This document shows, piece by piece, positions 38,352-54,117 of a DNA stretch of 64,000 bases; position 1 is the stretch's first letter; each line of letters starts with the position of its first letter. Under the pieces are notes generated by a model. It did no database searches. It had not been told where the DNA came from and saw nothing but the letters and a program-made list of their open reading frames with translations. This DNA is from Tenacibaculum tangerinum. GTDB lineage: Bacteria > Bacteroidota > Bacteroidia > Flavobacteriales > Flavobacteriaceae. Location: positions 1,109,001 to 1,173,000 of the forward strand of contig NZ_CP122539.1 in NCBI RefSeq assembly GCF_029853675.1, given 5' to 3'. A program made the translations under genes and the position numbers.

Positions 38352-38594
38352 GGTTGATTTATTTTTAATAGTATCCTACAAATTAGATCCTTTTGCACAA
38401 AAGTTTTTAAAATAATGTCACAAGCTCTTAAATTGCAGTTACAAAAAGCTGTTTTTTGAGACCAAGTGTAGTTTCATTTTCCAACTTTTCATAAATAGCT
38501 AAGTATACTATTTTTAAAATAGTAACTTATTTAGCAATGTATACCGAAGAAAAGACTTAGTTTTGTATCCCTTTTTTTGATAAAAAATGAAACA

Positions 38595-39068
38595 ATGAAT
38601 ACACACGAAGAATATATGAGTGAAGCTGTTAAAGCGGCTTTAAAAGGAATGCAAAATAACGAAGGAGGTCCTTTTGGTTGTATTGTAGTAAAAGATGGAA
38701 AAATTATTGGTCGAGGAAACAATAAGGTTACTTCTACCAACGACCCAACAGCTCACGCAGAGGTAACTGCCATTCGTGATGCCTGTAAAAACATTGGTTC
38801 TTTTCAGTTAGAAGGTTGTGTTGTGTATACTTCTTGCGAACCTTGCCCTATGTGTTTGGGTGCTATTTATTGGGCACGTCCTGATAAAGTTTTTTATGGT
38901 AGCAACCAACAAGATGCAGCCAATATTGGTTTTGATGATGCCTTTATTTATAAAGAAATTCCACTCCCTTACGAAAAAAGAAGCATTCCTTTTGAACAAA
39001 TAGGGCGTGATATTGCCTTAGAACCTTTTGAGAAATGGTCTGAGAAAGAAGATAAAATCGAGTATTAA
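38595..39068 (+). CDS. guaD: Guanine deaminase (CDA fold)
   Basis: 157 residues from the ATG at 38595; an upstream in-frame TTG at 38577 is less likely. Zinc ligands of the cytidine-deaminase fold are present: PTAHAEV (His and catalytic Glu) and CEPCPMC. The protein resembles Bacillus guanine deaminase in GGPFGCIVVKDGKIIGRGNN and the domain-swap C-terminal tail. It converts guanine to xanthine. The gene's natural terminator may be the hairpin at 39791, which now lies beyond a 692 bp cassette (see that entry). Confidence 0.88.
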   Translation: MNTHEEYMSEAVKAALKGMQNNEGGPFGCIVVKDGKIIGRGNNKVTSTNDPTAHAEVTAIRDACKNIGSFQLEGCVVYTSCEPCPMCLGAIYWARPDKVFYGSNQQDAANIGFDDAFIYKEIPLPYEKRSIPFEQIGRDIALEPFEKWSEKEDKIEY

Positions 39069-39119
39069 AATAGGATTATTCTCAGTTGTAAAACATACAA
39101 AAAACTACTATAGAAAGGA

Positions 39120-39644
39120 ATGAATAAAAATTTATTGGAATTATCAAGACATTGTAAAATATGTCAAAATTTAGATTTTGATATAAGCTATGGAACAAGA
39201 TGTGGATTGACTAATGAGCGACCAGACTTTGAAATTCGTTGTGGAAAAATAGACTTTGGAGACAAAGCTGAGAACTACATTACTGAGATATCTGTAGAAA
39301 AAGAATTAGTTAACAAGGCAAGATTTAATTATATAGGTACTTTTATTATGTTCCTGATTATAAGTCTAACTTTTATTGTTGGTGGAGCGCTCTTGACAAA
39401 TAAAATATTTGGATTTGGAATCTTTCATACAGCTACTCTAGTCCTAATGGGAATTGGATTATTAGCATTGCCTAAAGCTTTTGGAGCATTAAAAACTTAC
39501 AGAGCTAAAAAAGAGGTGGCTGATCAGAAAATTAAAATTCTTAATGACACTCTAAACAAATATGGAAAGAAGTATGAGATTGATTTAGAGATCAATGAAA
39601 TTCATGGTGTTAATGAAATTAAATCTAACGTAAGAATATATTAA
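39120..39644 (+). CDS. Cassette 1: hypothetical two-helix membrane protein with N-terminal cysteines
   Basis: 174 residues. Four cysteines in the first 45 residues (CKIC, CG and CG) suggest a zinc-binding knuckle. Two adjacent membrane helices follow (about 74-120), and a charged coiled-coil-like tail. I do not recognise a family. The gene starts 35 bases inside the cassette boundary at 39085 and stops six bases before the attC. The boundary GTTGTAAAAC and the end GTTTTACAAC are complementary. Confidence 0.65.
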   Translation: MNKNLLELSRHCKICQNLDFDISYGTRCGLTNERPDFEIRCGKIDFGDKAENYITEISVEKELVNKARFNYIGTFIMFLIISLTFIVGGALLTNKIFGFGIFHTATLVLMGIGLLALPKAFGALKTYRAKKEVADQKIKILNDTLNKYGKKYEIDLEINEIHGVNEIKSNVRIY

Positions 39645-39649
39645 ACGTT

Positions 39650-39783
39650 TTACAACAGGGTGTATAATTAATTGCGGCTGAATTTCCTCGTCGGAAATTC
39701 AATCTTATTAATTATCTTTCCGCAACATCGGAAAAGAACTTGCGTCCTTTTCCCGCAAAAAATCATACACAAATACGTTATAA
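39650..39783 (+). repeat. attC-like site 1 (134 bp)
   Basis: R'' TTACAAC and R' GTTATAA flank a stem GTGTAT / ATACAC, then an inner hairpin GAATTTCC / GGAAATTC at 39680-39700. Nearly identical over the whole length to attC site 3 at 42497-42630. Confidence 0.85.
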
Positions 39784-39790
39784 AAACCTA

Positions 39791-39824
39791 AAAACGCTGT
39801 TGCATTATAGCAACAGCGTTTTTT
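39791..39824 (+). terminator. Strong terminator 8 bases after attC site 1
   Basis: Perfect arms AAAACGCTGTTGC and GCAACAGCGTTTT with a six-base loop and T-run. It may be the original guaD terminator, displaced by insertion of cassette 1. Confidence 0.9.
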
Positions 39825-39907
39825 ACTCGTGCATCCATACTTCACCGTACCCAACAAACATTTTTCTATACAGATACATACTTTTATCTTTTTTATGGTT
39901 TGCTATT

Positions 39908-40044
39908 ACTCCCTTTAGGTAGTGAATACCACTCCCCTTACCGAGGGAGTATCACTCCCCTATAATGGGAGTATCGTTCCCCTTACTATAGGAGTGCCGC
40001 TCCCCTTACCGTTAGGGTGTCACTCCAATTAGGCTTCGTGTGTC
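39908..40044 (+). repeat. 23-bp quasi-tandem repeat, six units
   Basis: Units start at 39908, 39931, 39954, 39976, 39999 and 40022, each 22 or 23 bases, of the form ACTCCCCTTACCGAGGGAGT plus three bases. Several units are themselves inverted repeats (ACTCCC...GGGAGT), and the right arms drift (GGAGTG, AGGGTG, TCGTGTG). A weaker seventh unit may start at 40045. No coding frame runs through it. Confidence 0.75.
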
Positions 40045-40569
40045 GTTATAATGAGGCTTGGGGCATTATCCCGATAAAAAATGTGTTACTTTTTATGTTT
40101 ATTTTTTATATTTGGAAGGATATACGGTCGTAAAACCGTCGGCTTATGCTACTTAAAGAAGTAGTTGATGCGAAAGTGACAACAACTAAACATGCTCAAA
40201 TAGCTGCAACCTGCACAGCGATATAAAATCGTTTATGACAAAAAAACTACTTTTATTACTTATATAACTGAGCTTATGGGATTCCGTAAGAATGTATGCA
40301 CGTTATGTAGTAAGTTTGTAGGAACAGTATAATTAATAGTAACTTGTTTTAAGAACTTTATAATATCGCATGCTTTTGTTGAAATAAAAGCATGAACGTT
40401 TAACTATAACGAGTTAAAAACTATTAGAACTCAGAAATTAAAAACCCTTGTAATAGTTTAGAAAGAACAGTATATTTATTAAAAAATAAAAGCACTAAAA
40501 ATTAACAAAAAGTATCTTTATACCTCCAAATAGGTTGTATAAGAGTGCTAAAGGTATTTATATAAACAA

Positions 40570-40576
40570 GTTAGCA
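40570..40576 (+). other. Left boundary of the main cassette run, attI-like core
   Basis: GTTAGCA is complementary to the TGCTAAC that begins attC site 2, so a cassette starts here. The preceding AAACAA resembles the AAACAAAGTTAGGC end of attI1 as I remember it. No L' box of an attC is visible before it, unlike every other cassette boundary. Confidence 0.4.
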
Positions 40577-40596
40577 TTCATTAAAAAACGAAACCT

Positions 40597-41579
40597 ATGA
40601 AAAAAATAATTTTAATCGCTCTAATAGGAATAATATCAGGCTCTGCTTTTGGTCAAAAAGATATGACCGAATACAAATTATATGTTCAAAAAGCGGATTC
40701 TTTGTATGACGCAAAAGATTACAAAAACTCGGCAATCGAGTATCAAAAGGCATTTGATTCAAATAATGGCAAAGCATTTCCAAATGATAGATATAACGCT
40801 ACTTGTTCATTTGCATTAGCAGGAGAAACTGAAAAGGCATTTTATCATTTGTTGTATTCTTCAACTCACCATTAATAAAATATAAAAATTATGGTCATAT
40901 AACAACTGACCCTGACTTAAATTCACTTCACGAGAATGTTTTATGGGAAAAGCTAATTTCTGAAATTAAGGCAAACAAAGATGAATATGAGAAAGATTTA
41001 GATAAGCCTTTAGTCGCAATTCTTGATACAATTTATCAATCTGACCAAGGATATAGAAGGCAAATAAGAGATATCGAAGAAAAGTATGGCCGAGAATCTG
41101 CTGAGATGAAAGAACATTGGAAGTTAATCAATGAAACCGATTCAATTAACCTTATAAAAATCAAAAAAATATTGGACGAACGTGGTTGGTTAGGTCAAAA
41201 AGTTATAGGTAATCAGGGAAACAGCACATTATTTTTAGTAATTCAACATTCTGATTTGGAAACCCAACTCAAATATTTACCAATGATGCGTGAAGCAGTT
41301 AAGATTGGGAATGCAAGTGCAAGTAGCCTGGCACTATTGGAAGATAGAGTTGCTCTACGACAAGGGAAAAGACAAATTTATGGTAGTCAAATAGGAAGAG
41401 ACCAAGAAACAGGTGAATATTATGTGTCACCACTTATTGAGCCTGAAAAAGTAAATGAAAGACGTGCAGAAGTTGGGCTTGGAACGATTGAAGATTATAT
41501 CAAGAATTGGAATATGACTTGGGATTTAGAGAAACACAAACAAAGAACGAAAGAAATAGAATCAGAGAAAAAAGAATAA
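40597..41579 (+). pseudogene. Cassette 2: secreted DUF6624-like protein, frameshifted
   Basis: The first frame (to 40875) gives a signal peptide (SGSAFGQ) and a TPR-like N-terminus. It breaks at 40861-40866, where TTCAACTC reads in place of an expected TTCAAACTC. The second frame continues NSPLIKYKNYGHITTDPDLNSLHENVLWEKLI and then the DUF6624 core: LKKILDERGWLGQK-like, GNSTLFLVIQHSD, MREAVKIGNASASSLALLEDRVALRQGKRQIYGSQ. Function of DUF6624 is unknown. One missing A is enough to break it; mutation or sequencing indel. Confidence 0.75.
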
Positions 41580-41584
41580 CGAAA

Positions 41585-41651
41585 TGCTAACACTGTATAA
41601 GCGATAATTGCTTCCTATCGTCAGCTACTACGCTTATACTAAACGTTATAG
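41585..41651 (+). repeat. attC-like site 2 (67 bp)
   Basis: R'' TGCTAAC, stem GTATAAGCG / CGCTTATAC (nine perfect pairs), R' GTTATAG. The shortest site of the array, lacking the long inner region. Confidence 0.85.
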
Positions 41652-41673
41652 CCAATTACAGACAATTATAAAT

Positions 41674-42492
41674 ATGAAAAAAGAAAAAAACTTATTGAAT
41701 TCAATATTTCTGCTTTCTATTTTGACCTTATTGATTTCATGTAATAATTATTCGAACCAAAACATCAAAGTCATATCACCAAGTGACACATTATATGGAG
41801 ATCTTTATATCGGAGAAAACTCTTCTCCCACAAAATATTCTCCAAATGGATATTATATACAAGCTATAAAGCCAGAATATGGAATTTGGCAAAGACTACA
41901 AATCAATAATACCGAAAAAAATATAGAACCTGACATATTCTTTCATGAAGATAGGGTAAATCATAGTTACATATACGATTCATTAACTGTTGGTTTATAT
42001 AATGTTAAATATTTGTCTGAATTGAATGATACTATTGAACAAATAATAGATTTTAATCAAAGTATAAGACTAGAATTTCCAGCTAAGCTAGAAAAATATT
42101 ATAAGAAAAAGAAAATCAAAGATTTTGAAATGGGTATGTTCTCAAAAAATGACACATTACAATTTCTTTTTTTAAACAAAGGTTGTTTTGGTGGATCTCC
42201 TCCTACTTTAATAGAGTTTTTTTTCAACAAAAAAAATGAAATAGTTTACAAGGAAAGAATTATTGATGAATCTAGATTTCAAACTTGGTTATATTCTGAA
42301 AACTCAGACTATAAAGAAAATCTTAATAATTTTATCAATAGTCTTAAAGAGCTAGATGAAAACGATGAAAACTTATGCTCTTCCGAAGATGATTATGTTT
42401 TTAGAATAAAAGGAACTAATACAATTTACTGTCTGAAAGATAAATCTTGTAGACTTATGAGAGCGATCTCAAAATTGATGAAAAATAAATAA
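41674..42492 (+). CDS. Cassette 3: hypothetical lipoprotein
   Basis: 272 residues from the ATG at 41674; the longer ORF from 41608 would run through the attC site and is rejected. The signal ends in lipobox LISC. The mature protein is polar and rich in Asn, Lys and Glu, with KEE/ENDENLCSSEDDYVFR near the end; two cysteine pairs could form disulfides. No family recognised. Cassette start GTTATAGCCA and end TGGCTATAAC match. Confidence 0.65.
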   Translation: MKKEKNLLNSIFLLSILTLLISCNNYSNQNIKVISPSDTLYGDLYIGENSSPTKYSPNGYYIQAIKPEYGIWQRLQINNTEKNIEPDIFFHEDRVNHSYIYDSLTVGLYNVKYLSELNDTIEQIIDFNQSIRLEFPAKLEKYYKKKKIKDFEMGMFSKNDTLQFLFLNKGCFGGSPPTLIEFFFNKKNEIVYKERIIDESRFQTWLYSENSDYKENLNNFINSLKELDENDENLCSSEDDYVFRIKGTNTIYCLKDKSCRLMRAISKLMKNK

Positions 42493-42496
42493 CTGG

Positions 42497-42630
42497 CTAT
42501 AACAAGGTGTATAATTAATTGCGGCTGAATTTCCTCGCCCGAAATTCAATCTTATTAATTATCTTTCCGCAACATCGGAAAACGACTCGCGTCTTTTTCT
42601 CGCAAAAAATCATACACAAATACGTTGTAA
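42497..42630 (+). repeat. attC-like site 3 (134 bp)
   Basis: R'' CTATAAC, L''/L' GTGTAT / ATACAC, inner hairpin GAATTTC / GAAATTC (42527-42547), R' GTTGTAA. It differs from site 1 at only a small number of positions. Confidence 0.87.
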
Positions 42631-42647
42631 GTCATTAAAGCAAACCT

Positions 42648-43475
42648 ATGAAATACATATTATTACTCGGAATTCTGATTTCATTTTCCGGAACAAATCT
42701 TATCGCTCAATCGACTTCTGACAGTCTGAAACCAAAAATGAAAATGGTAAAAGAAGTTTTGTATAAACCTGAAAATGGCGAATTAAAAAGCCGAGAAAAT
42801 CTATTTGAAACTGATTTAAGCTCTTATAAGGTTTATGATAAAAATGAGAAGATAATCGAATTGGGACAATATGAAATAGATGGCTCTATTTACGAAACGA
42901 ATTTTTATGAGAGAGATGAAAATGGCAAGGCATTAAAAGCTATGCAAAAGAATTCTTCTGGAGAATTAAAAGGTTATTGGACTTATACATATGATGACAA
43001 CGATAATATGATTGAAGTTAAAACCTATGACTCAAACGATAATTTGGTTAAAATACAATCAAACAAATACGATGAAAAAGGTAATAATGTAGAGATGATA
43101 TTAAAAAGTCCTGAAAGTGAAAACGGCTGGAAATATCTCTATAAATATAATTTTGACAATAAATTAGTTGAGAGATTTAGATATAAACCAGATGGAAGTT
43201 TAAAAGACCGAAGAACATATTCTTACGGTAAAGACGGAAATGAGAATTTACAGTTCAAATTCAATCCTGATGGAAGTTTTATGAAGTTTGTTTCCGAATA
43301 TGACGAAATGAATAATATGACTATTCAGAACTGGTTTAACGAACAAGACGAACGAACACACCAAACTTCTTTCGAATATGTATATGACGAAAATGGAAAT
43401 TGGATTTCTAAAAGGAGAAGTTCTAATGGAGAATTAGGAATGGTTTGGGAAAGACAAATTGAATATTACGAATAA
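42648..43475 (+). CDS. Cassette 4: secreted YD-like repeat protein
   Basis: 275 residues with a cleavable signal peptide (about 1-20, LIAQS). The mature part is a series of about seven repeats of the YDENGN type (YDDNDNMIEVKTYDSND, YDEKGNNVEM, YGKDGNENLQFK, YDENGNWISK), as in RHS/YD beta-sheet repeats and WapA-like shells. Such single-module proteins in flavobacteria are of unknown role. The cassette start (GTTGTAAG) is not complementary to its attC end (GCACAAC), unlike most other cassettes. Confidence 0.7.
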   Translation: MKYILLLGILISFSGTNLIAQSTSDSLKPKMKMVKEVLYKPENGELKSRENLFETDLSSYKVYDKNEKIIELGQYEIDGSIYETNFYERDENGKALKAMQKNSSGELKGYWTYTYDDNDNMIEVKTYDSNDNLVKIQSNKYDEKGNNVEMILKSPESENGWKYLYKYNFDNKLVERFRYKPDGSLKDRRTYSYGKDGNENLQFKFNPDGSFMKFVSEYDEMNNMTIQNWFNEQDERTHQTSFEYVYDENGNWISKRRSSNGELGMVWERQIEYYE

Positions 43476-43486
43476 AAAAATACGTT

Positions 43487-43616
43487 GCACAACAATGGCT
43501 ATAAGTAATTGCTTGTTCTCGCCTACTTCTGAAAATCCTAGCGGATTTTCAGTTTAGTGTGTACTTGCAAAGTTTAGTGCTAACCCACGCAACTACCCAT
43601 AGCCGAGACGTTGTAC
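43487..43616 (+). repeat. attC-like site 4 (130 bp)
   Basis: R'' GCACAAC, stem GGCTAT / ATAGCC, second stem AGTAaTTGC / GCAAcTAC with one A-C mismatch, inner hairpin GAAAATCC / GGATTTTC (43531-43550), spacer GAGAC and R' GTTGTAC. Confidence 0.88.
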
Positions 43617-43636
43617 GCAAGCTGAAAAAACATTAC

Positions 43637-44269
43637 GTGAATTTAGAAACTGCAAAATATATAATTGACTATTTTCCAAATCTTATGACTAATGAGGAAT
43701 GGAATGCTTTGAGATATTTAAGGCTAAAATCCAAAACTCAAGGGAATCCGAAAATGGAAAAAATTCTAAAGAGTAAAGGGGATTTATCGATTAGTGAAAA
43801 CGGATTGGAATTGATTAAAAAGGGTTCTGAAAGCTTCCGATTAAATGTTGCGAAAAGAATATTGGAGGAACGTGGAGCTGATTTATTTCTAAATAAATGC
43901 CCAAATTGCGAATTTCTAGCTAGAACGCCTCAATCTAGGCAATGCAGAAATTGCGGAAATAATTGGCACAATATTAAAGTTGCGGATTTTAAGCTAAATA
44001 GTTCTTTTCAGCTAACAGGAAAACAATTTTATTTGCTTGGAGAAATAAGAAACGGAAATATAGAAATTGGAAACTTTATCGATTTAACAATGCTCGGAAT
44101 GAATTGCAAACCGAAAATCGAATCAATAGAGTTTGCTCTTAAAAAAGTAAATGGAGAAGCAACAGAAGATATTGCTTTGGGAACAAATGAATTGACTGAA
44201 TCCCAAAAGGAGCGATTAAAAAAAATCGGCATGTTCGGAACACCATTTGATATTATAAAAGAAAGATAA
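43637..44269 (+). CDS. Cassette 5: hypothetical protein with a zinc ribbon
   Basis: 210 residues from GTG at 43637, chosen because the longer frame from 43559 begins inside the attC site; an ATG at 43685-43687 is an alternative. The middle contains CPNCEFLARTPQSRQCRNCG, a four-cysteine zinc ribbon (about 86-104). An N-terminal helical part LMTNEEWNALRYLRLK precedes it. No signal peptide. Function unknown. Cassette start GTTGTACGC and end GCGTACAAC match. Confidence 0.6.
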   Translation: MNLETAKYIIDYFPNLMTNEEWNALRYLRLKSKTQGNPKMEKILKSKGDLSISENGLELIKKGSESFRLNVAKRILEERGADLFLNKCPNCEFLARTPQSRQCRNCGNNWHNIKVADFKLNSSFQLTGKQFYLLGEIRNGNIEIGNFIDLTMLGMNCKPKIESIEFALKKVNGEATEDIALGTNELTESQKERLKKIGMFGTPFDIIKER

Positions 44270-44276
44270 AGCCAGC

Positions 44277-44406
44277 GTACAACACCGTGTATAATTCATT
44301 GCTAGTACTCGCCTACTTACGAAAATCCTCGCGGATTTTCTATTCGGTTTGTATTTGCTAAATTAGTTGCTGAAACACGCAACTAACCATACACTACACG
44401 TTGGCA
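44277..44406 (+). repeat. attC-like site 5 (130 bp)
   Basis: R'' GTACAAC, stem GTGTAT / ATACAC, inner hairpin GAAAATCC / GGATTTTC (44321-44340), R' GTTGGCA. Confidence 0.88.
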
Positions 44407-44784
44407 TTAATACGAAATGAACGAGGAAATAACAGACAGAATTGAACAATATCTTGAATTAGATACAAATTATGCCATCATAATTAATGGCGATTATGGA
44501 ATTGGAAAGACTCATTATATAAAGAATCAACTTTTTCCTAAAATTGCCAAATTAAAAATCCCTAATTCAGAAAAGGACGAAACCTATATTCCCATTCTAA
44601 TTTCTCTATTTGGAGCTAAATCTATAGAAGATATTCAAAATCAAATATTTGTTGAGTTATATCCAATATTAAAAAAAAGAGGTATAAAAATAGTAGCAGG
44701 TTTAGGTAATACTGTTTTGAAATATTTTGGAAGCAATCTTAAAGATTTATTATCTGAAACAGGAACATCAAGCGAAAGTTTAAC

Positions 44785-44792
44785 TGATTACA
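44785..44792 (+). repeat. Target duplication, left copy, of the IS982-like element
   Basis: TGATTACA, repeated at 45807-45814 on the other side of the element. Confidence 0.85.
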
Positions 44793-45806
44793 ACGTGAGT
44801 TCGGGATAGTTTATCCTATTCTTTGTAAGTTATCGATATTGATATTAGGTTTAGTTGGATAAAACGAATAAGCGATTAACCCTGCGACTAAATTTAAGAT
44901 AAAGTTATCGAAGCTTCTGTGTCTTGTATGCTCTATTTGACATACGTTTTTCAAAATATCATTCACACTTTCAATAACAGCCCTTTTTCTAAGCATAATT
45001 TTATCATAGATATGCATAAGAGTATTTTTCATATTCTTTCTAATTTTTGTAACCAAATGTATTCCATCTACAAAAAGCTGTTCAAACAGTTCTTTACCTA
45101 CATACCCTCTGTCGGCAAATATTTTTCCGAACACACGATTATGAAAGGCTTTATCTTTAAGTGGTTGCCTGTCATCTATATTACCTTGCGTAATTAAAAA
45201 GTCAACGATATCGCCCTTTTCATTGATAATAATATGAAGTTTAAAACCAAAGAACCACCCCATGGTTCCTTTCCCCTTTTTTTGCGGTGTTTTTAAAAAC
45301 TTTGTTCTGCTTTTCTCTTTTATAATGACATACTTTAATAGTGGTAGAATCTAAAAAGGAGATCCCTGTACATTGACCTAAACAGTGCATTTGAAGAAAC
45401 AGTATCATAGGCACTGAACAACGCTTTTTCAATTCAACAAATCGGTTATAGGAAACTAAATCTGGAAATTCTTTTGACAAGTGTTTGCTAACATATTCGA
45501 TATAAAAGTGTTTAAAACACCTAAAACCACTAAAATGGAAAAGCACCATAATTGTGATTATTTCACTTTGGGTGAGTTTAGGCTTTCTTCGTCTAACTAT
45601 CTTTGAACAGGTTTCTAAAGCATTTTTATCAATAACTTGATTAATTTCGGTACAAAAATCATCAATTAAACAGAAAAATTCAGTAATTTTAAAATCAGAA
45701 ATCATAGTGGAAAATTTAGTTACACAATTAAAAATCAGTACTTTAATTTACTAAATTTTTCGCTTTTTTTCGTGTAATTAAAAAACTTTTTTATCCCGAA
45801 CTCACG
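44793..45806 (-). mobile_element. IS982-like insertion sequence
   Basis: 1014 bp. Perfect 15-bp terminal inverted repeats: CGTGAGTTCGGGATA at 44794-44808 and its complement at 45792-45806, with one extra A at the left. Flanked by 8-bp direct repeats TGATTACA. It carries one transposase on the minus strand. Confidence 0.88.
44811..45705 (-). pseudogene. IS982-family transposase, frame broken at an A7 run
   Basis: Two minus-strand frames overlap. The first (45241-45705) starts MISDFKITEFFCLIDDFC, typical of IS982 transposases, and contains the catalytic LDSTT block. The second (44811-45263) has KGTMGWFFGFKLH, an ADRGYVGKELFE aspartate block and the C-terminal glutamate region RKRAVIESVNDILK. 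The frames join at 45277-45283, where the minus strand reads A7 followed by G4. One A fewer restores NTAKKGKGTMGWFFGFK. The element is probably inactive, unless slippage on the A-run rescues it. Confidence 0.8.
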
Positions 45807-47207
45807 TGATTACAGTAAAATTCTAATTTGCATTGATGATATAGACCGAAAAAGTTCCGAACTTGATTTAAAAGAAGTATTTGGTTTTGTAAATAATCTT
45901 GTAGAAAATCTTAATGCAAAAATCTTACTTATCGCTAATGAAGATGAACTCAGAAAGGAAATAAATACTGACGACATAGACCATTACTCATTATTAAGAG
46001 AAAAGGTAATTGGTATTTCTGTAAGTTTTAACACTAATGTTTCTTCAACATTCGACAGAATTATTGAAGCAAAATATAAAACTGAAAATAAATCATATTT
46101 TGATTTTTTAACTGAGCATAAGAAAAACATAGTCAATAGAATTTCTCAAAATAAAGACAACCTTAGAAATTTATTATTCTTCTTAGAACATTTCAAAATA
46201 GTCTTTAACGAAACAAGTAATTATCTTTCAACAGAAAGCAAATTTGATACAATAAAAAAAGATGTACTAGAAGGTATTTTAAATTTCACTTTGCCAATAT
46301 CAATCGAGTACAAGATGGGAAAATTAAACACCTCGAATTTTTCTGAAATAAAGGAAATTTATCAAGGTTTTTCGTTTAAACTTTCGCAGTTAATTGGAAA
46401 TTCTAATAAAGAAGAAGCACCTAAAACTTACGCTGAATTATTTAAAGAAAAGTATTCGCCAGACGACAACGTCCAAAGAATATATTTTGAATCCATATTC
46501 AATTACATAACGGGAAAAACATCATTTAAAATTGTACAATTATCAGATGAATTAAATTTATTATACAAGTTTGAAGACAACACAATTCCCGAAAGAGAAA
46601 AGTTAATTTCAAAATTAAATTATTGGGATTGTGTGGATTTAAAGCACTCTGAATATCGCTCATTCACATCTTCTCTTTTAAAATATGTAGACAAAGGAGA
46701 GTTTTCTTTAGAACAATACCCTACTATATTTCACTATACGACTAGATTTAATAATCTACTTAATTACAATATTGAAAACCTCAAAAAAAGATTTAAAAAA
46801 GGAATACTTAAGGGTAAGAATAATTACCAATATGTCAGAAGTATTCATTTTCGACTATCAGTTGATAGAACAAGTGAATTTTATGATGATTTGACAGAAA
46901 TTGTTGAATACTGTGTGGAGATAAACAAAGGCATTAAAGAAGGTCAAGAATTAAAAGAATTGACTGATATATTTGATTTATTTTCATCTGACTTCAACGC
47001 TTATTTAGAAAAAGTTGAAGAGATGAATAACGAGTTTATGTTTACACCTTATTTCACAAAATATGATTTCAACAAAATTTGGAGAGTAATTAAAAAGCTG
47101 GATAATACACAAATTGTAAATTTCGGTTTCTATTTTGAGGGAAGGTATTTTAGCCCCCAATAAGTTCGGAGTACTATTTTAAATTTCAAATTAATACATT
47201 TGAAATT

Positions 47208-47519
47208 ATGAGATATAAGAAATGGACCTTAGAACAGAAGTTAGAAATATTAGCTAGTTCTGAAGAGATAGGTATAGTAGAAGCCTGTCGTAAATATAGT
47301 GTTAGTACTGGCACTTTCTATAGTTGGAAAAAGAAGTTTGAGTATAAAGGAGAAGCTGGATTGAAGGTTACCTACGATACCAAAAGTAAAGAGCTTAAAG
47401 CTGCAGAGGAAGAAAATCGTGTATTGCGAAAGTTACTTAGTGATAAAGAAATAGAACTAGAGGTACAGCGAGAACTCTTAAAAAAAAAGTTTGGGACATC
47501 AGATCCAAGAAAGATTTAG
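47208..47519 (+). CDS. IS3 transposase OrfA (helix-turn-helix)
   Basis: 103 residues. The HTH_Tnp_1 fold is seen in KWTLEQKLEILASSEE...VEACRKYSVSTGTFYSWKKKFEYKG, then a leucine-rich coiled coil (about 62-95) used for multimerisation. OrfA binds the terminal repeats. A -1 frameshift at 47483-47489 fuses it to OrfB. Confidence 0.92.
   Translation: MRYKKWTLEQKLEILASSEEIGIVEACRKYSVSTGTFYSWKKKFEYKGEAGLKVTYDTKSKELKAAEEENRVLRKLLSDKEIELEVQRELLKKKFGTSDPRKI
47483..47489 (+). promoter_or_regulatory. Programmed -1 frameshift site A AAA AAG
   Basis: The slippery heptamer A-AAA-AAG lies at the end of an A9 run, in the correct phase of orfA, 30 bases before the orfA stop. The -1 frame continues KKKVWDIRSKKDLV without a stop into orfB, so the fused OrfAB transposase can be made. 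Confidence 0.85.
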
Positions 47520-47569
47520 TAGATGTAACCTATGAAAAGCACAAGTGTAGCAAGACAAAAATTATAAAA

Positions 47570-48415
47570 ATGGTGGGTATTGTTGAGAGTAGTTATTATA
47601 GAGTTCCTAGCGGTGGCAAAAAAGGAAATAAGCCATCTAGAAAAACCTTTCACAATACAAAAGGTTTTGTGTCACAAGATGTCCTAGTAACTTCTATAAA
47701 GGAGATCTTACAGCACGAGTTTATAGATTGTGGATATCGATTAATGACTAGCTATTTGAATAGAGATGGTTACACTATCAACCATAAAAAGCTATACAGA
47801 ATTATGAAAGAAGAAGGATTGTTAAAGCTTTGCAACAGAATAGATAGAAGTGGTTCTGGACGTAAATTTGTAAAATTCAGAAAGGTTCAAACCAATAGAC
47901 CATTAGAATGCTTAGAAATGGATATAAAGATGGTTTGGATACCTAGTGAAGGCAAAAACGCTTACTTACTCTCTGTAATTGACGTTCACACACGCAGAAT
48001 ATTAAAGGATTATTTTTCATTTACTATTAAACAAAACAATGTAATAGCACTGCTATCAGAGTTATTTGAAGATTATGAATATCCTAATAACGTGGTCATT
48101 AGAAGTGATAATGGCAGTCAATTTATAGCAAAAAAAGTACGTGAATATTTAGGTTTAATCGGAGTCCAACAAGAGTTTACACATATTGCCACACCAGAAG
48201 AGAACGCACATATTGAAGCCTATCACGGCATATTAAAAAAAGAAGTTTTTAAAAGGTTCGATTATCAATACTTTGGTGAAATAGAACAGATACTAAAGCG
48301 TTACCTGAAATTTTATAACAATAGAAGACTTCACGGCCTATTGGGACGCATAACTCCAATGGAAAAATGGAATGCAGATGAACATCTAATTACTATGAAA
48401 AAATTAACAGCTTAA
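47570..48415 (+). CDS. IS3 transposase OrfB (DDE catalytic domain)
   Basis: 281 residues from the first ATG; the frame is open upstream to the frameshift site. The rve integrase core has all three acidic residues: LEMDIKMV (Asp), RSDNGSQF (Asp) and ENAHIEAYHG (Glu), plus the HGLLGRITPMEKW end. The HTH_21 domain (GYRLMTSYLNRDGY...NHKKLYRIMKEEGL) precedes it. Full catalytic set suggests an active element. Confidence 0.92.
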   Translation: MVGIVESSYYRVPSGGKKGNKPSRKTFHNTKGFVSQDVLVTSIKEILQHEFIDCGYRLMTSYLNRDGYTINHKKLYRIMKEEGLLKLCNRIDRSGSGRKFVKFRKVQTNRPLECLEMDIKMVWIPSEGKNAYLLSVIDVHTRRILKDYFSFTIKQNNVIALLSELFEDYEYPNNVVIRSDNGSQFIAKKVREYLGLIGVQQEFTHIATPEENAHIEAYHGILKKEVFKRFDYQYFGEIEQILKRYLKFYNNRRLHGLLGRITPMEKWNADEHLITMKKLTA

Positions 48416-48650
48416 CTAATAATCGAAATTTGAAAGATTACTCTTGTTTTATAGGGGTCAAAACAGGAAGGTATCGAATAAATGTTTTCGAAGGTATTTA
48501 CCCTGAAAAACAATTTTTAGAGAATCTAAATGAAAAAGTTGAGAATCTAATATTGAACAGAACTACTAACAAACTGAAAAAAGTAACCTTAGAGTTCTTT
48601 AGCAAGAAAATAAAAGAATCCATTGGAAACTTTCCTGAATAAAGTACTAA

Positions 48651-48846
48651 TGCCAACAATGTATAAAAAACATAGGGCATTTGTGCTAAACTGAAAGGTT
48701 TTTGCTTATTAACCAAGTCCGCTAAATATAAAATTTGGCGTTTATAGTAGAAAAGATAAAAGCAAAATATTTATATTTAGCTAAGTAACAAACCGAAACG
48801 AAAGTGCTTATCACCTGCCCTACGTTTCTTATACGAGACGTTACCA
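48651..48846 (+). repeat. attC-like site 6 (196 bp)
   Basis: R'' TGCCAAC, stem GTATAA / TTATAC, then AAACaTAGGGCA / TGCCCTAcGTTT with one A-C mismatch, spacer GAGAC, R' GTTACCA. The longest site of the array. Confidence 0.83.
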
Positions 48847-48851
48847 CACAT

Positions 48852-49763
48852 ATGAGAAAAACCAGTTTCATCATTTTAACTTTAGCTTTCAATTTAATGT
48901 TGAATGCTCAAAATATAGATTTTGGAAATTTTCCATCCGAAAACAATGATGAGAAACCTATTCTAACTTCTGACTTACTAAAGTCATTAAATTGGGAAAA
49001 ATTAAAAGAATTTAGTAAATCAAACGAAGGTCATTACACTTATGAAAGGAAAGACAGCTTATTAATAAAGTATGAATATGTTCAGCAAGGTCGAGTAGCT
49101 GATTTTAAAATAATAAGTTTTAACGATAAAGTATTAGAATATAGATCTCAAATATCGAATACGTCTAAAGAAACTAACACAAATTATTTTGACAAAAAAC
49201 TGTGGTTAGAATATGCTCATACTTATTTACCAAATCTTACAGATGGTTTGAAGTTGAGTATTAACGAACCTAAAAGAATTTTAAAAGCCTATTACGAACT
49301 ACTAGTAGTTGGAACTTATGATGAATATGGCTGGATTTGCGAATATTCAACAGTTGGAAGAGCAACTGACCGAAGAATGGCTGTTATCGAATTATTAGGT
49401 CGAGAAGAATTATTGTGGCAACTTCTGGAATATCCAAACGTACACGTTCAACTTTATGTTGCGGATGCATTAATTTATTCTGATTTTAGGGACAAACAAA
49501 TGATAGAGGAATATAAAGAAAATAGGAAATACAAAACTGCTCGTGAAATGATAAAGTATCTGAAAGACGAATTGTTGACCAAAGCAGAATGGGAAAAAAT
49601 ATATGAATTAAGAGATAGTAACCAAAAAGTAAGTACTTGTAAAAGCGGAACAGGGTCGTTTAAAATTTATGATAATAACACTTCCGAATTGTTAAGCGAG
49701 CAAGCTATTTCTGAAATTCCAAAAAGACATGAGGAATTGAGAGAATTAGGCTACTTGAGATAA
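48852..49763 (+). CDS. Cassette 7: hypothetical secreted protein
   Basis: 303 residues from the ATG at 48852; upstream codons lie inside the attC. Signal peptide ends near LMLNAQN. The mature protein is alpha/beta with a HEAT-like core (RRMAVIELLGREELLWQLLEYPNVHVQLYVADALIY) that resembles HEAT-repeat scaffolds. No enzyme motif seen. Cassette start GTTACCACAC and end GTGTGGTAAC are complementary. Confidence 0.65.
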   Translation: MRKTSFIILTLAFNLMLNAQNIDFGNFPSENNDEKPILTSDLLKSLNWEKLKEFSKSNEGHYTYERKDSLLIKYEYVQQGRVADFKIISFNDKVLEYRSQISNTSKETNTNYFDKKLWLEYAHTYLPNLTDGLKLSINEPKRILKAYYELLVVGTYDEYGWICEYSTVGRATDRRMAVIELLGREELLWQLLEYPNVHVQLYVADALIYSDFRDKQMIEEYKENRKYKTAREMIKYLKDELLTKAEWEKIYELRDSNQKVSTCKSGTGSFKIYDNNTSELLSEQAISEIPKRHEELRELGYLR

Positions 49764-49771
49764 AATACGTG

Positions 49772-49903
49772 TGGTAACAACGTATATAAAAAATAGCGGC
49801 TTAATTGCCTAACACAAAGTAATTTTATAAATTTAAGGTCAATATAAAACCGAAAAGTTAGTACTTAAAAATCCGCTACTTTTCATATACAAGACCGTTA
49901 CCT
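49772..49903 (+). repeat. attC-like site 7 (132 bp)
   Basis: R'' TGGTAAC, stem GTATAT / ATATAC, then AAAAaTAGCGG / CCGCTAcTTTT with one A-C mismatch, R' GTTACCT. Confidence 0.87.
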
Positions 49904-49921
49904 GCAATTTAAAAAAAGACA

Positions 49922-50602
49922 ATGAAGAAAAAAATACCAATCGGATCAAGAAAAATTCTTGACCAAGTATCATCTGGCAACAATGGGCTTTTCGAAGCTG
50001 AATTTACAGAAGATTGCGTTATAAGATTCAAGGATTCTGATTCTGAAAGTGATTTTTTCTTCGAAATTCAGAAAATTAACGCAGCTCAAGGAAATAATAT
50101 AGTTTCGTATACCATAAGATATAAACCTTCTAATGAGGAAACTTTATCACCACATCACACGAGTGTTAACCTTTCTAATTTCAGAGGTCATTTCGACAAG
50201 TGGAAAAAATTATTAATTGAAGCCAATAAAGAAAGTCCATTATTCGATGATGTATTTACACAATCTTACTATGATGAATTAGAGCCAAAATTTGAGATAT
50301 TAGATGAAGATGCGGAAATAAAACCATACTCAATTGAACAACAACAAAGAATAGTTGAATTCCTTGATAAAGCACAAAAAATATTAAACCGTCAAAAGAG
50401 AAAAAATGACCCAGAAATAAAAGAAGCTTCGGAATTAATAAAGGAAACTAAAGCTAATATTTCTAAATCTACAAAGAAAAAAGTAGTTAAGAATATCCGA
50501 AAGATTATTGCAAAGGGTTTTAAGGCTGGACTTGAAATTGGACAAAAATTGCTAATTGAATTTACAACTGAATTAGCTAAAAAATTAATAATGGGTGGAT
50601 AA
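49922..50602 (+). CDS. Cassette 8: hypothetical cytoplasmic protein
   Basis: 226 residues, no signal peptide. The N-terminal half is beta-rich and acidic; the C-terminal third is a lysine-rich helical segment (KKKVVKNIRKIIAKGFKAGLEIGQKLLIEFTTELAKKLI) that is strongly amphipathic and could associate with membranes or nucleic acid. Cassette start GTTACCTGCA and end TGCAGGTAAC match over ten bases. No family recognised. Confidence 0.65.
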   Translation: MKKKIPIGSRKILDQVSSGNNGLFEAEFTEDCVIRFKDSDSESDFFFEIQKINAAQGNNIVSYTIRYKPSNEETLSPHHTSVNLSNFRGHFDKWKKLLIEANKESPLFDDVFTQSYYDELEPKFEILDEDAEIKPYSIEQQQRIVEFLDKAQKILNRQKRKNDPEIKEASELIKETKANISKSTKKKVVKNIRKIIAKGFKAGLEIGQKLLIEFTTELAKKLIMGG

Positions 50603-50610
50603 AAAACTGC

Positions 50611-50743
50611 AGGTAACAATGCATAACCGCAATTACGGCGGATTCGACTACGTGCGAATCCACTCGGAATTGCTAACGTCAGTGCTTAACCGAAAATCAT
50701 TAACTTTAATCCCGTAACTGACGGTTATACGAGACCGTTGTGC
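50611..50743 (+). repeat. attC-like site 8 (133 bp)
   Basis: R'' AGGTAAC, stem ATAACCG / CGGTTAT, then CAaTTACGG / CCGTAAcTG with one A-C mismatch, inner hairpin GGATTCG / CGAATCC (50640-50661), R' GTTGTGC. Confidence 0.88.
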
Positions 50744-50749
50744 ATAATT

Positions 50750-51373
50750 ATGAAAACAGTACTAAAATCAATCTTTCTGCTAATTATAAGCTTCTCGTGT
50801 TTTAGCCAAAACAGCGGAAATAAAAACTTGAATTTAGTATTTTATGATGTCTGTTCTGATAAAATAATTGAACCTGAATTTGAAGTTTTCTCAATGTCGG
50901 AATTGAATTATGATTACATTACAGTCTATAAGGAAATCGACGATTGGGTACTTCAATACACAACATCAATAAAAACCAAAAATGACACCATTAGAATTCC
51001 AAAAATTCTTTTTGCAGGTGGAAACGAATTACATTCAAAACTTTGGACTTATTTGAATTGCGAGAAGGTTTGCGATGGAAAAGAAACAGATTTTTATGAA
51101 AACGGAAATAAGCGGACTGAAGGAACGTATAAAAATGGGAAACCGATAGAAATCAAAGAGTACCGAGAAAACGGAACTTTAAGAGCTCAATACTTTTATG
51201 AAAATCTGACTCTTAACTATAGTCGTGTTGATTACTACGATGAAAATGGCGATTTGGAAGAATATCAAATTTATGAGAATAAAAAGAGGAAAACGATAAT
51301 CAAAACATTTGATAAAAACGGACAATTAACTGAAACGGAAACCGAAAAAAAATATATTGAACGGAATAAATAA
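50750..51373 (+). CDS. Cassette 9: secreted MORN/YwqK-like repeat protein
   Basis: 207 residues from the ATG at 50750; the TTG at 50738 lies inside R' and is rejected. Signal peptide ends at SCFSQ. From about residue 115 a series of MORN-like units is seen: DFYENGNKRTEGTYKNGKP, EYRENGTLRAQYFYENL, DYYDENGDLEEYQIYENKK. YwqK-type MORN proteins are listed as antitoxins or immunity proteins in some genomes, but that is not shown here. Cassette ends GTTGTGCAT and ATGCACAAC match. Confidence 0.7.
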   Translation: MKTVLKSIFLLIISFSCFSQNSGNKNLNLVFYDVCSDKIIEPEFEVFSMSELNYDYITVYKEIDDWVLQYTTSIKTKNDTIRIPKILFAGGNELHSKLWTYLNCEKVCDGKETDFYENGNKRTEGTYKNGKPIEIKEYRENGTLRAQYFYENLTLNYSRVDYYDENGDLEEYQIYENKKRKTIIKTFDKNGQLTETETEKKYIERNK

Positions 51374-51377
51374 CTAT

Positions 51378-51510
51378 GCACAACACCGGCTATAGTTCAT
51401 TGCTTCCAACTTTCCTTTCGGAAAGTCCTCGCAAATTTGCTATCTTCGGTTTACGGCGGAAAATCCTCGCGGATTTTCACGCAACGAAACCATAGCCAAA
51501 CACGTTGTGT
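51378..51510 (+). repeat. attC-like site 9 (133 bp)
   Basis: R'' GCACAAC, stem GGCTAT / ATAGCC, inner hairpin GAAAATCC / GGATTTTC (51459-51478), a second inner hairpin CTTTCC / GGAAAG, R' GTTGTGT. Confidence 0.87.
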
Positions 51511-51524
51511 TTAATTTGAAAAAA

Positions 51525-52268
51525 ATGAATTGGATAGTAATATTTAATAGATTATTTGAAATAATTAATAATCAAGGAAATGACGCTTATTATGGCGGAA
51601 CTCGATTCTTAACTGCAATACGAGAAGTTAATTATGGAACGCCTTCATATATGAATTATATAGAGCAAAGAAGAGCGGAAGGAAAAAGTACAAGTCGGAG
51701 AGATTACTATTTTGAATTATTAATGGAACAGCCAGAAAATGAAAGAATTCAAGTTGTCAATAGTATTCTGGATTCAATTGAACATATCGAAACAGAGAAA
51801 ACGGAAGCAATTCGAGCAATTGTAAACCCTGCACAAACTATAGTTGGACCAGAGGCTGTAATTCCTGCTGACTTATGGAATGCAGAAAGGCTAATGGAAT
51901 ATTTAGATAATTTAGACACTTCCATTAATGAAGAAAATTATGAATACACTTTAACATTGGCATATACTTGTTTAGAGGGGTTTTATAAATCATTTATAAG
52001 GGAAAAAATTCCTGCTCAAGCACATTTGAATGACTTAACACAAATGGCTGTTCAAATTAGAAATTATATTAGAACTCAATTGGATGCTAATGGAATCGCA
52101 TATCCCGAACAAACAGTTATTTTGATTTCTACAGTAACAAATGCTGTCTGTAATGCTCGAAATAATTTTAGTGATTCACACAGTGGAAATAGAGCCGAAA
52201 AATGGCTTGCTATTTATTTACGTGACAATGTAAATGCAATAGTAAAAATGATTTTAAATTTTATATAA
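51525..52268 (+). CDS. Cassette 10: protein with abortive-infection (Abi-C-like) C-terminus
   Basis: 247 residues from the ATG at 51525. The C-terminal half (TLAYTCLEGFYKSFIREKI...NAVCNARNNFSDSHSGNRAEKWLAIYLRDNVNAIVKMI) has the RN-x-x-SD-x-H-x-G pattern of the abortive-infection C-terminal (HEPN-like) domain. The N-terminal half (about 1-115) is unassigned. It may act against phage by RNA cleavage; this is inference. Cassette ends GTTGTGTTTA and TAAACACAAC match. Confidence 0.6.
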   Translation: MNWIVIFNRLFEIINNQGNDAYYGGTRFLTAIREVNYGTPSYMNYIEQRRAEGKSTSRRDYYFELLMEQPENERIQVVNSILDSIEHIETEKTEAIRAIVNPAQTIVGPEAVIPADLWNAERLMEYLDNLDTSINEENYEYTLTLAYTCLEGFYKSFIREKIPAQAHLNDLTQMAVQIRNYIRTQLDANGIAYPEQTVILISTVTNAVCNARNNFSDSHSGNRAEKWLAIYLRDNVNAIVKMILNFI

Positions 52269-52276
52269 AAAACTAA

Positions 52277-52406
52277 ACACAACCATGGCTATAAGTAATT
52301 GCTTTTTCTCGCCTACTTTGGAAATTCCGCAGGAATTTCCAACTCGGTGCGTACTTACAAAGTTGAGTGATAACCCACGCAACTACTCATAGCCGAGACG
52401 TTAGCA
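52277..52406 (+). repeat. attC-like site 10 (130 bp)
   Basis: R'' ACACAAC, stem GGCTAT / ATAGCC, then AGTAaTTGC / GCAAcTACT with one A-C mismatch, inner hairpin GGAAATTCC / GGAATTTCC (52320-52340), spacer GAGAC, R' GTTAGCA. Confidence 0.89.
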
Positions 52407-52423
52407 AACATTTGATAAAAACC

Positions 52424-53278
52424 GTGAAATATATTCAAATTCTCATATTAATTTTCATTTTTAGTTGTTCGAATAATAAAACCAATTCGAATGACCAAGA
52501 ATTTGATTCGCAGAAAATAGACACACTGAGATATGGATATAACGGATTTAATAATGGGCTACAACTGGACTTATTAAGTGATGGACGTTTTATTAACGAA
52601 AATTATCTATTCAGTTGCTTTGGTGGCGGAGAAAGGAAAAGAGTATTCGGAACATATAAAATGGACAGCCTGAAACTGACCTTGAATCCCGAAAGAATTG
52701 AATTTATTGAATATCCTGAGGATATGGAATTAAAACCGAAAACAACCAAAATAAATTATGGGATTGACTCATTAAAAATTAAAACGGAATTTCAAGTTGT
52801 AAAATGGGAAAATAATGAATATCTGTTTTCAGAATACTTTGATTTTGGTTGGAGCTTGGAAAAAGAAAATGACTATATCCGATTTGCGGACTATATAAAC
52901 AGTGGTTTAGAACCAGAAACGAGTGGAATGTATTTAGTTCGAAAAACCAAGGATTCAATTACGTCTGAATTTGATTTAAAACAAATACCTGAAAAATGGC
53001 AAAGTTATTTTTTAAAAGAACCTGTATCTGCGAAAATTAAATACATCAAAAAAGTTATTGACCCAAACGATGAAGAAAATATCTCTTGGTTAATAGAATT
53101 GGACAAAGGAAAAAATGACAGAATGAATAATAGGCTGACCTTGGAAACAAAAGATGGCGAGTTTTTTATCGAAGTCGATTCTGTTTTGACTAACAGAAGT
53201 TTTGGAATGACCTATATGTATGATTTTACACCAAAAAAATTCCCAATCGGAACTGAGTTAAGAACAAAATGGAAATAA
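52424..53278 (+). CDS. Cassette 11: hypothetical lipoprotein
   Basis: 284 residues from GTG at 52424, which places a normal signal (KYIQILILIFIFSC) at the N-terminus; upstream in-frame codons belong to the attC. Lipobox FSC, then a polar mature protein with GERKRVFGTYKMDSLKLTLNP and a C-terminal half rich in lysine. No family recognised. The cassette start GTTAGCA is not complementary to its terminal GCACAAC, so the end may have been exchanged or truncated. Confidence 0.6.
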   Translation: MKYIQILILIFIFSCSNNKTNSNDQEFDSQKIDTLRYGYNGFNNGLQLDLLSDGRFINENYLFSCFGGGERKRVFGTYKMDSLKLTLNPERIEFIEYPEDMELKPKTTKINYGIDSLKIKTEFQVVKWENNEYLFSEYFDFGWSLEKENDYIRFADYINSGLEPETSGMYLVRKTKDSITSEFDLKQIPEKWQSYFLKEPVSAKIKYIKKVIDPNDEENISWLIELDKGKNDRMNNRLTLETKDGEFFIEVDSVLTNRSFGMTYMYDFTPKKFPIGTELRTKWK

Positions 53279-53287
53279 AAGCACTAT

Positions 53288-53316
53288 GCACAACAATGTA
53301 TTATATTAATTACTTA
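53288..53316 (+). repeat. Truncated attC-like site 11 (left part only)
   Basis: GCACAACAATGTATTATATT resembles the left arm of sites 6 and 7 (AACAATGTATAAA), but no matching L' and R' boxes follow before the next gene, so the array ends in a partial site. Confidence 0.65.
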
Positions 53317-53415
53317 AAAAAACCTTATAAATAAAGGGATTAAAAAGATTAATTTAAAAAAGGTACAACATAGGTATAACATTTTAACCTATAATTAGAA
53401 GTGATCTAAAGGCAT

Positions 53416-53475: not shown

Positions 53476-54117
53476 TTAAGCAGCCGTACCAGAGCCTAAA
53501 TACACACTATTTGATACTTGACTACCATCTGCAGAAACAAACGCCATAAATAGCTCTACTGTGTCCCCTGCATAGGTATTTGGAATTGTTACCGATTGAG
53601 AACCTGCTGTTCTGTCTGCACCATCTAAAATATAGACAGATTCTTTTTTACTTGGATTGTAAACCAACACCATTACTTTATCTGTTGCATTTGCGTTACC
53701 CTCTGCCGAGTTATCTCCCCAACCAAAATCCACTTGTCCTGGTGTTGCTAAATCTGTAGTGCCATTTAAAACACCTGATAAAGAACCCCTACTTAAAAGA
53801 GCTAATGAATAATCTATCGTAAAGTTAGGTGCCGTACCTCCTACCGCATTATTTAACACATAAGACATCGCTGCATTAAACTCTGTTTTTTTTGTTGCAA
53901 AAGACTTGTAACCAATTTTTACAAAATCTTTGTTTGCTTGTAAATATTCCAGCGTGATAGTAAATTTATTACGTTGATTTACTTGCCCTTCAGTTCTAGG
54001 GTTTGCTACACTAGATGGTTTTATTCTTATATAGTCAATACCTTTCCAATTACCACCTATAATATTACCTACTTTACCTGATAATCCTCCTAAAATACCT
54101 TGTGAAATCTTTCCCAT
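53476..54117 (-). CDS. DUF6266 family protein
   Basis: 213 residues. The N-terminus MGKISQGILGGLSGKVGNIIGGNWKGIDYIRIKP is typical of the DUF6266 family, which is common and often multi-copy in Flavobacteriia. No signal peptide. The rest is beta-rich, with no known catalytic motif; a phage- or secretion-related role has been suggested but not shown. It is separate from the cassette array (opposite strand) and has its own terminator. Confidence 0.8.
   Translation of the reverse strand: MGKISQGILGGLSGKVGNIIGGNWKGIDYIRIKPSSVANPRTEGQVNQRNKFTITLEYLQANKDFVKIGYKSFATKKTEFNAAMSYVLNNAVGGTAPNFTIDYSLALLSRGSLSGVLNGTTDLATPGQVDFGWGDNSAEGNANATDKVMVLVYNPSKKESVYILDGADRTAGSQSVTIPNTYAGDTVELFMAFVSADGSQVSNSVYLGSGTAA

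Follow-up and report, generated by a model that had tools for sequence, protein, structure and literature searches.

Which enzyme assembles an integron-like cassette array where no integron integrase (IntI) is found is the question raised by a locus of Tenacibaculum tangerinum. The stretch analysed (the window, 64,000 nucleotides, bases 1109001-1173000 of a single-contig 3.61-Mb genome) contains one of the several cassette arrays of this genome, with eleven cassettes over 14.2 kb (Table 1). A preliminary description, made from the window's letters, had called it an integron-type array; the layout, the circle junction, an attI site and a change of content between relatives bear this out, but an integron in the strict IntI/attC sense is not supported. 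The preferred interpretation is that of a separate integron-like class in Bacteroidia, with the layout of an integron but failing the tested defining features (an IntI above the cut-off, the IntI insertion and the attC ends). With a probability of roughly 0.8, the array belongs to an integron-like, IntI-independent cassette system of Bacteroidia in which, as far as sequence comparison can tell, a Xer-type recombinase is predicted to move the cassettes.

The array shows 10 full palindromic sites on the plus strand, the number first described. A covariance model (R1; 145 positions, 10 pairs), built from 16 sites (10 from the window and six from outside it), recovers 10/10 window sites with 46.5-126.9 bits; since it was trained on these sites, the independent support comes from its matches elsewhere. 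Across the 16 aligned sites, 96.9% of the stem cells are paired, versus 17.5-35.6% with the partner shifted by 1-3 columns, and the covariation score is above all 500 shuffles; two of five covariation measures (both-side pair changes and further pair types) are indistinguishable from shuffles. Three of the six L-arm pairs show both-side changes, and the paired L''/L' arms vary in sequence with the structure kept. The integron ends RYYYAAC and GTTRRRY, which the preliminary description had assigned to these sites, are each present in 0/10 window sites and in 4/127 sites over all loci, and both together in 0/127; the near-constant ends are YAAC (125/127) and GTTR (122/127). The partial last site also described there has its left half in common with the same-genus genome G661 and gives no match with R1. 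No Rfam family matched the window. Early exact-stem scans, which missed most sites and were replaced by the covariance model, show an about two-fold downstream excess, 22 matches versus 11, 17 and 24 in the other classes, whose base counts differ.

In a cassette that was once circular, the start followed directly on the end of the cassette's own site and is therefore expected to be complementary to the left arm of that site. In the window, 9/11 cassette starts complement the site of the same cassette at 10-13 of 14 positions, as had been noticed for nine of them, and the two exceptions are the cassettes that begin at 42624 and 52400. For 91 consecutive site pairs, taken from the window, from the locus of the genome's own recombinase gene (L009) and from other loci, the own match has a mean of 7.54/10 versus 3.56 for other pairings, and the highest of 5000 permutations is 4.16. 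Position counts and folds were made on the 72 well-matched pairs among these 91. Numbered from GTT onwards, positions 4-9 match in 94% or more of the 72 pairs, positions 12-14 in 86% or more and position 10 in 75%. A mispair occupies position 11 in 71/72: 59 show A against C and 12 show A against G; the start carries A at this position in 125/127.

The recombinase that accompanies such arrays is represented in the window by its last codons, followed by attI. Both were overlooked in the preliminary description (40437-40571), as were two transposons within the gene of cassette C5. The 137-nt stretch 40437-40572 shows 93% identity to the terminal part of the L009 recombinase gene together with its attI. 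The statement that the array is without an integrase thus stands for the window but not for the genome, where the frameshifted long copy heads another array: the L009 gene is a 343-codon frame (G000:C1:241377-242330, minus strand) with a frameshift after the RHSFATH motif, and gene, attI and array follow each other in one direction. The search of the genome for an IntI-type recombinase, proposed as a check, found none above the TIGR02249 family cut-off (0/10 matches) and found instead a Xer-like family without the IntI insertion. The part of the L009 protein before the frameshift scores 114.8 bits to TIGR02249 (cut-off 265) and 95.5 and 101.3 bits to the XerC and XerD models TIGR02224 and TIGR02225 (cut-offs 335 and 330); the best NCBIfam model is XerA, with 133.7 bits (cut-off 220). 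A fragment of a second recombinase gene of the family is located at G000:C1:842575-842832 (L010), near the site block 845220-859949.

The family contains at least 7147 proteins at E<=1e-3 among the 7999 scored. The best named relatives belong to Tenacibaculum; Polaribacter, Zobellia and others are lower among the matches listed. About 48 residues of the IntI structure 2a3v (residues 200-247) have no counterpart in the recombinase. The region that carries the IntI insertion has 74-75 residues in 102/102 family rows versus 116 in 19/19 IntI, an insertion of about 41 residues, and 79-82 residues in the two Xer-type genes of the own genome, which has XerC/XerD-type genes of its own. A quick tree of 69 rows places the 41 family rows in one clade (SH-aLRT support 93), the 19 IntI rows in another (100) and the nine XerC/XerD rows apart (99). 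Midpoint rooting makes the family the sister of IntI; this relation is not claimed because the tree was flagged for long branches and took in 41 of 102 family rows and nine Xer rows. In the AlphaFold model, about 72 residues form an additional N-terminal domain. In fold searches the whole model is nearest to VchIntIA (2a3v) and archaeal Xer structures, and the N-terminal domain alone ranks the XPB damage-recognition domain first, a weak match below the safe level of the tool; HARP, tried as an identity for this domain, is at ranks 4-5 behind XPB, all of these matches being weak.

Arrays follow this gene at many other places. Of the 135 site matches used, 112 lie in the 80 recombinase loci of the locus set (the best 80 of 576 relatives, from a scan of named genome contigs): 110 are downstream of the recombinase on the same strand, none is downstream on the opposite strand and 1 + 1 are upstream, where these loci contain twice as much DNA. 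At least one site match is present in 32/80 loci, or in 32/51 once 29 loci with less than 1 kb downstream, mostly contig ends, are excluded; 14 loci with at least 1.5 kb downstream show no site match. The order recombinase, attI and array in one direction is found in many Bacteroidota, and intact recombinase genes adjoin sites in two genomes of the same genus (G029 and G088). In the class sample of 295 genomes, with a family cut-off of E<=1e-75 chosen by the analysis, the family is present in 132/295, IntI in 1/295 and sites in 84/295; sites occur in 58/132 genomes with the family versus 26/163 without it (p 1.5e-7). In the phylum sample, IntI is above the cut-off in 105/395 genomes, and one listed match comes from the same class. 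From these figures, 105/395 phylum genomes and 1/295 class genomes, IntI and the Xer-like family seem to split the phylum. Phage records show 18 matches at E<=1e-30, none spanning 80% of the query. Among plasmid records, 8 of the 246 that match cover at least 80% of the recombinase query. Three Bacteroidota plasmids were examined: those of Chryseobacterium sp. SNU WT5 and Rufibacter tibetensis have two and four sites, respectively, behind the recombinase, and the C. oryzae plasmid shows no site match, though the attI end is at the expected place. For the six plasmid sites, the best start/own-site match has A against C at position 11 in five, and the sixth is a tie.

The first cassette was traced in 34 arrays, and in 25 of them it starts 84-145 nt past the recombinase end. 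With a slash marking the joint, the bases at its start read A/GTT in 25/25 and AACAA/GTT in 13/25. As a possible sign of a promoter Pc directed into the array, TAnnTTTG, the Bacteroidota -7 promoter motif, is present in the 110 nt before G/TT in 12/25 attI sites versus 6.3% of random stretches; the attI sites of the window and of L009 do not contain it in these 110 nt. The genome has six long attI copies, with identities of 100 (the window), 100, 99, 99, 93 and 79%, and each has sites behind it that run in its own direction; three other attI matches in the genome are short. Four attI copies, including that of the window, close a similar module of about 0.7-1 kb, which in one of them has an insert of about 0.5 kb. 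These attI platforms appear to have been copied without the recombinase gene and then served in trans. Eleven of 17 site blocks have no long attI copy. In the window the module is apparently non-coding from 39853 to 40430, with CTCCCCTTA-type short repeats before attI; its copies are in L176, L177 and L178, and parts of it match places in the same-genus genomes L167-L169 at 73-78%. The module was also considered as a decayed recombinase gene and rejected, the DNA-level match being limited to the last codons.

R1 finds at least 92 sites in the whole genome at E<=1 (150 of 4051 first-look candidates were scored), and 81 sites with E<1e-3 form the 17 blocks. Site blocks lie in G000:C1 88314-240273 on the minus strand and 736759-1630076 on the plus strand. 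Fourteen of the 17 blocks (76 sites) are co-directional with replication, assuming an origin at dnaA (250958); the strand that folds better would then lie to one side of the replication fork. Two further sites are located about 10 kb to the right of the window on the same strand (L012 5284-5431 and 6014-6158).

The better-folding strand is the bottom one. DNA folds of each start joined to its own site, as in the circle, give the bottom strand the greater stability in 71/72 sites (mean -31.4 versus -27.1 kcal/mol), compared with 71/150 random 150-nt stretches. Taken by itself, the outer arm is the more stable one on the bottom strand in 69/72, and in 71/72 both strands have it paired in their lowest-energy fold. 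With free spacing, an inner helix of at least six pairs is found in 62/72 top and 63/72 bottom strands, and with the fixed 3/5 spacing the inner arm is kept in 10/72 on either strand. Of the sites of the window and L009, 11/13 have the longer inner helix on the bottom strand, e.g. 16-19 versus 6-7 pairs. An A.C on the top strand is a G.T on the bottom strand, and A.C makes up 25/33 mispairs in the 12 inner arms for which fixed spacing allows a gap-free alignment. The fold energies suggest the folded bottom strand as the recombining form, as do the stem mispairs, since they are mostly A.C on top and therefore G.T on the bottom.

The content between fixed flanks changes, as seen when cassette content is compared between relatives: in G661 the deaminase and DUF6266 flanks hold two other cassettes in about 1.7 kb versus eleven in 14.2 kb. 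The right flank of G661 shows 88% identity over 988 bases, and on this side its array likewise closes with the same partial site. The left flank is matched in 40/58 same-genus genomes. Eight same-genus stretches were compared: the right flank is present in one (L170), L167 and L168 end at contig ends, and no right flank was found in the other five; the only ones with site matches are L170 and, about 15 kb off, L169. With the right flank in 1 of 8 stretches, the same-genus genomes were rejected as examples of empty sites. In the window, the array starts 17 nt past the deaminase gene, which also precedes the array site in same-genus genomes, and C0 is inserted next to this gene without an attI before it.

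In the proposed mechanism, a Xer-type tyrosine recombinase, not IntI, would insert circular cassettes at the attI beside its gene, and the same enzyme would excise them through the palindromic sites. The crossover would take place at G/TT, as in integrons, on the folded bottom strand. The extra N-terminal domain, with its weakly XPB-like predicted fold, may read the hairpin, as IntI does by its insertion, and a single recombinase might serve several attI copies in trans. The full version of this reading, a Bacteroidia integron class that combines a Xer-type recombinase, an N-terminal reader of DNA distortion replacing the I2 helix, bottom strands marked by A.C/G.T wobbles and many dispersed attI platforms served by one recombinase, has about even odds. 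The arrays of this genome are probably now frozen because its only long recombinase copy is frameshifted.

Several other explanations were weighed. A classical integron array, a cluster of attC sites lacking integron integrase (CALIN) with IntI lost or elsewhere and the Xer-like gene as a mere neighbour, would share the layout of array, attI and palindromic sites, and would suit both the frequency of IntI in the other classes of the phylum and the NCBI/UniRef names of some family members, integron integrase or integron-related. However, no IntI is above the cut-off in the own genome nor in 294/295 class genomes, the site ends do not fit RYYYAAC/GTTRRRY, and at many loci the attI-array blocks trail the Xer-like gene in one direction; with IntI absent, the insertion missing and the site ends failing, this candidate was rejected and is very improbable. 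Still less credible, and refuted in the main by the circle-junction and recombinase-neighbourhood tests, is a non-mobile palindromic repeat family, similar to miniature inverted-repeat transposable elements (MITE) or repetitive extragenic palindromes (REP), that lies between small genes by chance. The number of sites and blocks in the genome would agree with it, and the attI module is itself a dispersed repeat, but such a family predicts neither complementarity between an arm and the sequence one gene upstream, nor placement on one strand behind one recombinase gene, nor exchange of content between fixed flanks.

The same cassette system could also work on double-stranded sites, with the hairpins and the A.C/G.T bias serving, e.g., RNA structure or replication. 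Xer recombinases act on double-stranded dif. Two points weigh on this side and against the folded strand: among in-array folds, 3/5 bottom strands take another lowest-energy fold, and a family without the IntI insertion would have to recognise folded single strands, a role given to the I2 helix in PMC7790495. On the other hand, the arms vary in sequence with pairing kept, the mispair is fixed at one position (71/72 pairs) and the bottom, non-coding strand folds better in 71/72, so that an mRNA structure would be the worse folder; this explanation keeps a real but minor share of the probability. The arrays could also be old products now reshuffled by homologous recombination alone, between near-identical sites or attI modules. 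The frameshift of the own-genome recombinase and attI copies 99-100% alike at four places are compatible with this, but the exact G/TT joints, the intact start/own-site pairs (9/11) and the intact recombinase genes beside sites in G029 and G088 are not what it predicts, and it is improbable.

The IntI-independent, Xer-type system preferred here is like integrons and CALIN in its one-direction units with a terminal palindromic site, its circle-junction signature and its attI beside the recombinase. In attC sites the bottom strand is more stable, and the sites here are like them in this. It is unlike integrons in several features: the recombinase has no IntI insertion and has an extra N-terminal domain, the site ends are not RYYYAAC/GTTRRRY, the outer arm reaches 14 positions with the mispair at position 11 fixed, attI is behind the 3' end of the recombinase gene with everything in one direction, and one chromosome contains several gene-less attI copies. 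The recombinase shares the catalytic domain of XerC, XerD and XerA, also without an insertion in the region compared, but it forms a separate clade, has the extra N-terminal domain and has arrays behind its gene. The family may belong among the insertion-less members of the "integron-like subgroup" of simple tyrosine recombinases (Mol Syst Biol 2021, PMC8138268); the available part of that article describes no cassettes or sites for these members and does not mention Flavobacteriia or Bacteroidia.

TnpF of plasmid pHH1107 (FJ012881, L187 6028-8049) is a C-terminal fragment that shares 57% identity with residues 145-371 of the family. It precedes tet(X3) by 195 nt, a stretch that contains a TATATTTG motif. 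TnpF is unlike the family in being this fragment only and in having no site match nearby: on pHH1107 the site model gave no match and the matched-end script no start/own-site pair at its threshold. Because its distance from TnpF is like the spacing between recombinase end and first cassette, tet(X3) may have started out as a cassette in a system of this kind.

Table 1. Features of the cassette array and its flanks in the window (positions of the window; match, complementary positions between cassette start and own site; bits, score with model R1; AAC, position of this triplet in the site).
Feature	Position	Strand	Match or bits	Description
Left flank	38577..39068	+		Cytidine/deoxycytidylate deaminase family gene (PF00383, Pfam)
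Cassette C0	39085..39776	+	11/14	Open reading frame 39120-39644
Site 1	39642..39790	+	100.9 bits	AAC 39654
Dispersed module	39853..40572	+		attI at its end; 3 more copies of similar length in the genome
Last codons of recombinase gene	40437..40461	+		Rest of gene absent; 93% identity to L009 end
attI	40466..40571	+		End is ATATAAACAA/GTT
Cassette C1	40570..41644	+	10/14	DUF6624-type gene in two frames (40597-40875, 41106-41579; Pfam)
Site 2	41577..41658	+	46.5 bits	Short; AAC 41589
Cassette C2	41645..42623	+	13/14	
Site 3	42489..42637	+	106.2 bits	AAC 42501
Cassette C3	42624..43609	+	7/14 (no match)	Weak RHS/YD repeat match
Site 4	43479..43623	+	126.9 bits	AAC 43491
Cassette C4	43610..44399	+	12/14	
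Site 5	44269..44413	+	110 bits	AAC 44281
Cassette C5	44400..48839	+	13/14	PDC-S49-like gene with two transposons inside
Transposon in C5	44811..45705	-		DDE_Tnp_1_3 transposase in two frames
Transposon in C5	47208..48415	+		HTH_Tnp_1 and rve frames (IS3-type)
Site 6	48643..48853	+	59.7 bits	Long; AAC 48655
Cassette C6	48840..49896	+	13/14	
Site 7	49764..49910	+	94 bits	AAC 49776
Cassette C7	49897..50736	+	13/14	
Site 8	50603..50750	+	102.6 bits	AAC 50615
Cassette C8	50737..51503	+	13/14	MORN_2 repeat protein
Site 9	51370..51517	+	106.5 bits	AAC 51382
Cassette C9	51504..52399	+	13/14	AbiJ-like abortive-infection protein
Site 10	52269..52413	+	122.9 bits	AAC 52281
Cassette C10	52400..53291	+	5/14 (no match)	Compared with the partial site behind it
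Partial last site	53281..53317	+		Left half only; common to G661
Right flank	53476..54117	-		DUF6266 gene; same right flank in G661

The single gene direction first described holds for the cassette open reading frames, all on the plus strand, but not for the first transposon inside C5. The C5 gene is broken by two transposons of different type, and its first fragment matches the PADLOC defence candidate PDC-S49 with E 2.2e-22. C6 and C7 show only weak PADLOC matches, and no convincing family was found for C0, C2, C4, C6, C7 and C10, the last not having been run against NCBIfam. Relatives of C9 show 72% identity in Acetobacteroides (order Bacteroidales) and in Flavobacterium and 64% in an Ignavibacteriales metagenome-assembled genome, a range that would fit transfer across orders.

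Single-strand cassette recombination is held to have arisen when the integrase gained the I2 helix (eLife 2020, PMC7790495). One article names one complete integron in Bacteroidetes proper, in Salinibacter, with IntegronFinder 2.0 (PMC9024848), and another reports none with IntegronFinder on one Tenacibaculum genome (PMC10013915). The system is undescribed in the available parts of PMC9024848, PMC8618304, PMC9668308, PMC8138268, PMC7790495, PMC10013915, PMC2426708, PMC5458099 and PMC8400371, and no description was found in the accessible parts of the open-licence literature, with preprints outside the scope; no claim is made that the system is unpublished. If the reading given here is true, this would be a second bacterial system that trades genes as cassettes. 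A widespread insertion-less system of the same layout would then be either a second solution or a branch predating I2, a question that could be tested by comparing the two enzymes. It would account for the low number of integrons that surveys find in this class, and, since its cassettes include defence-type genes, genes may be exchanged on a large scale by a route that escapes the standard tools.

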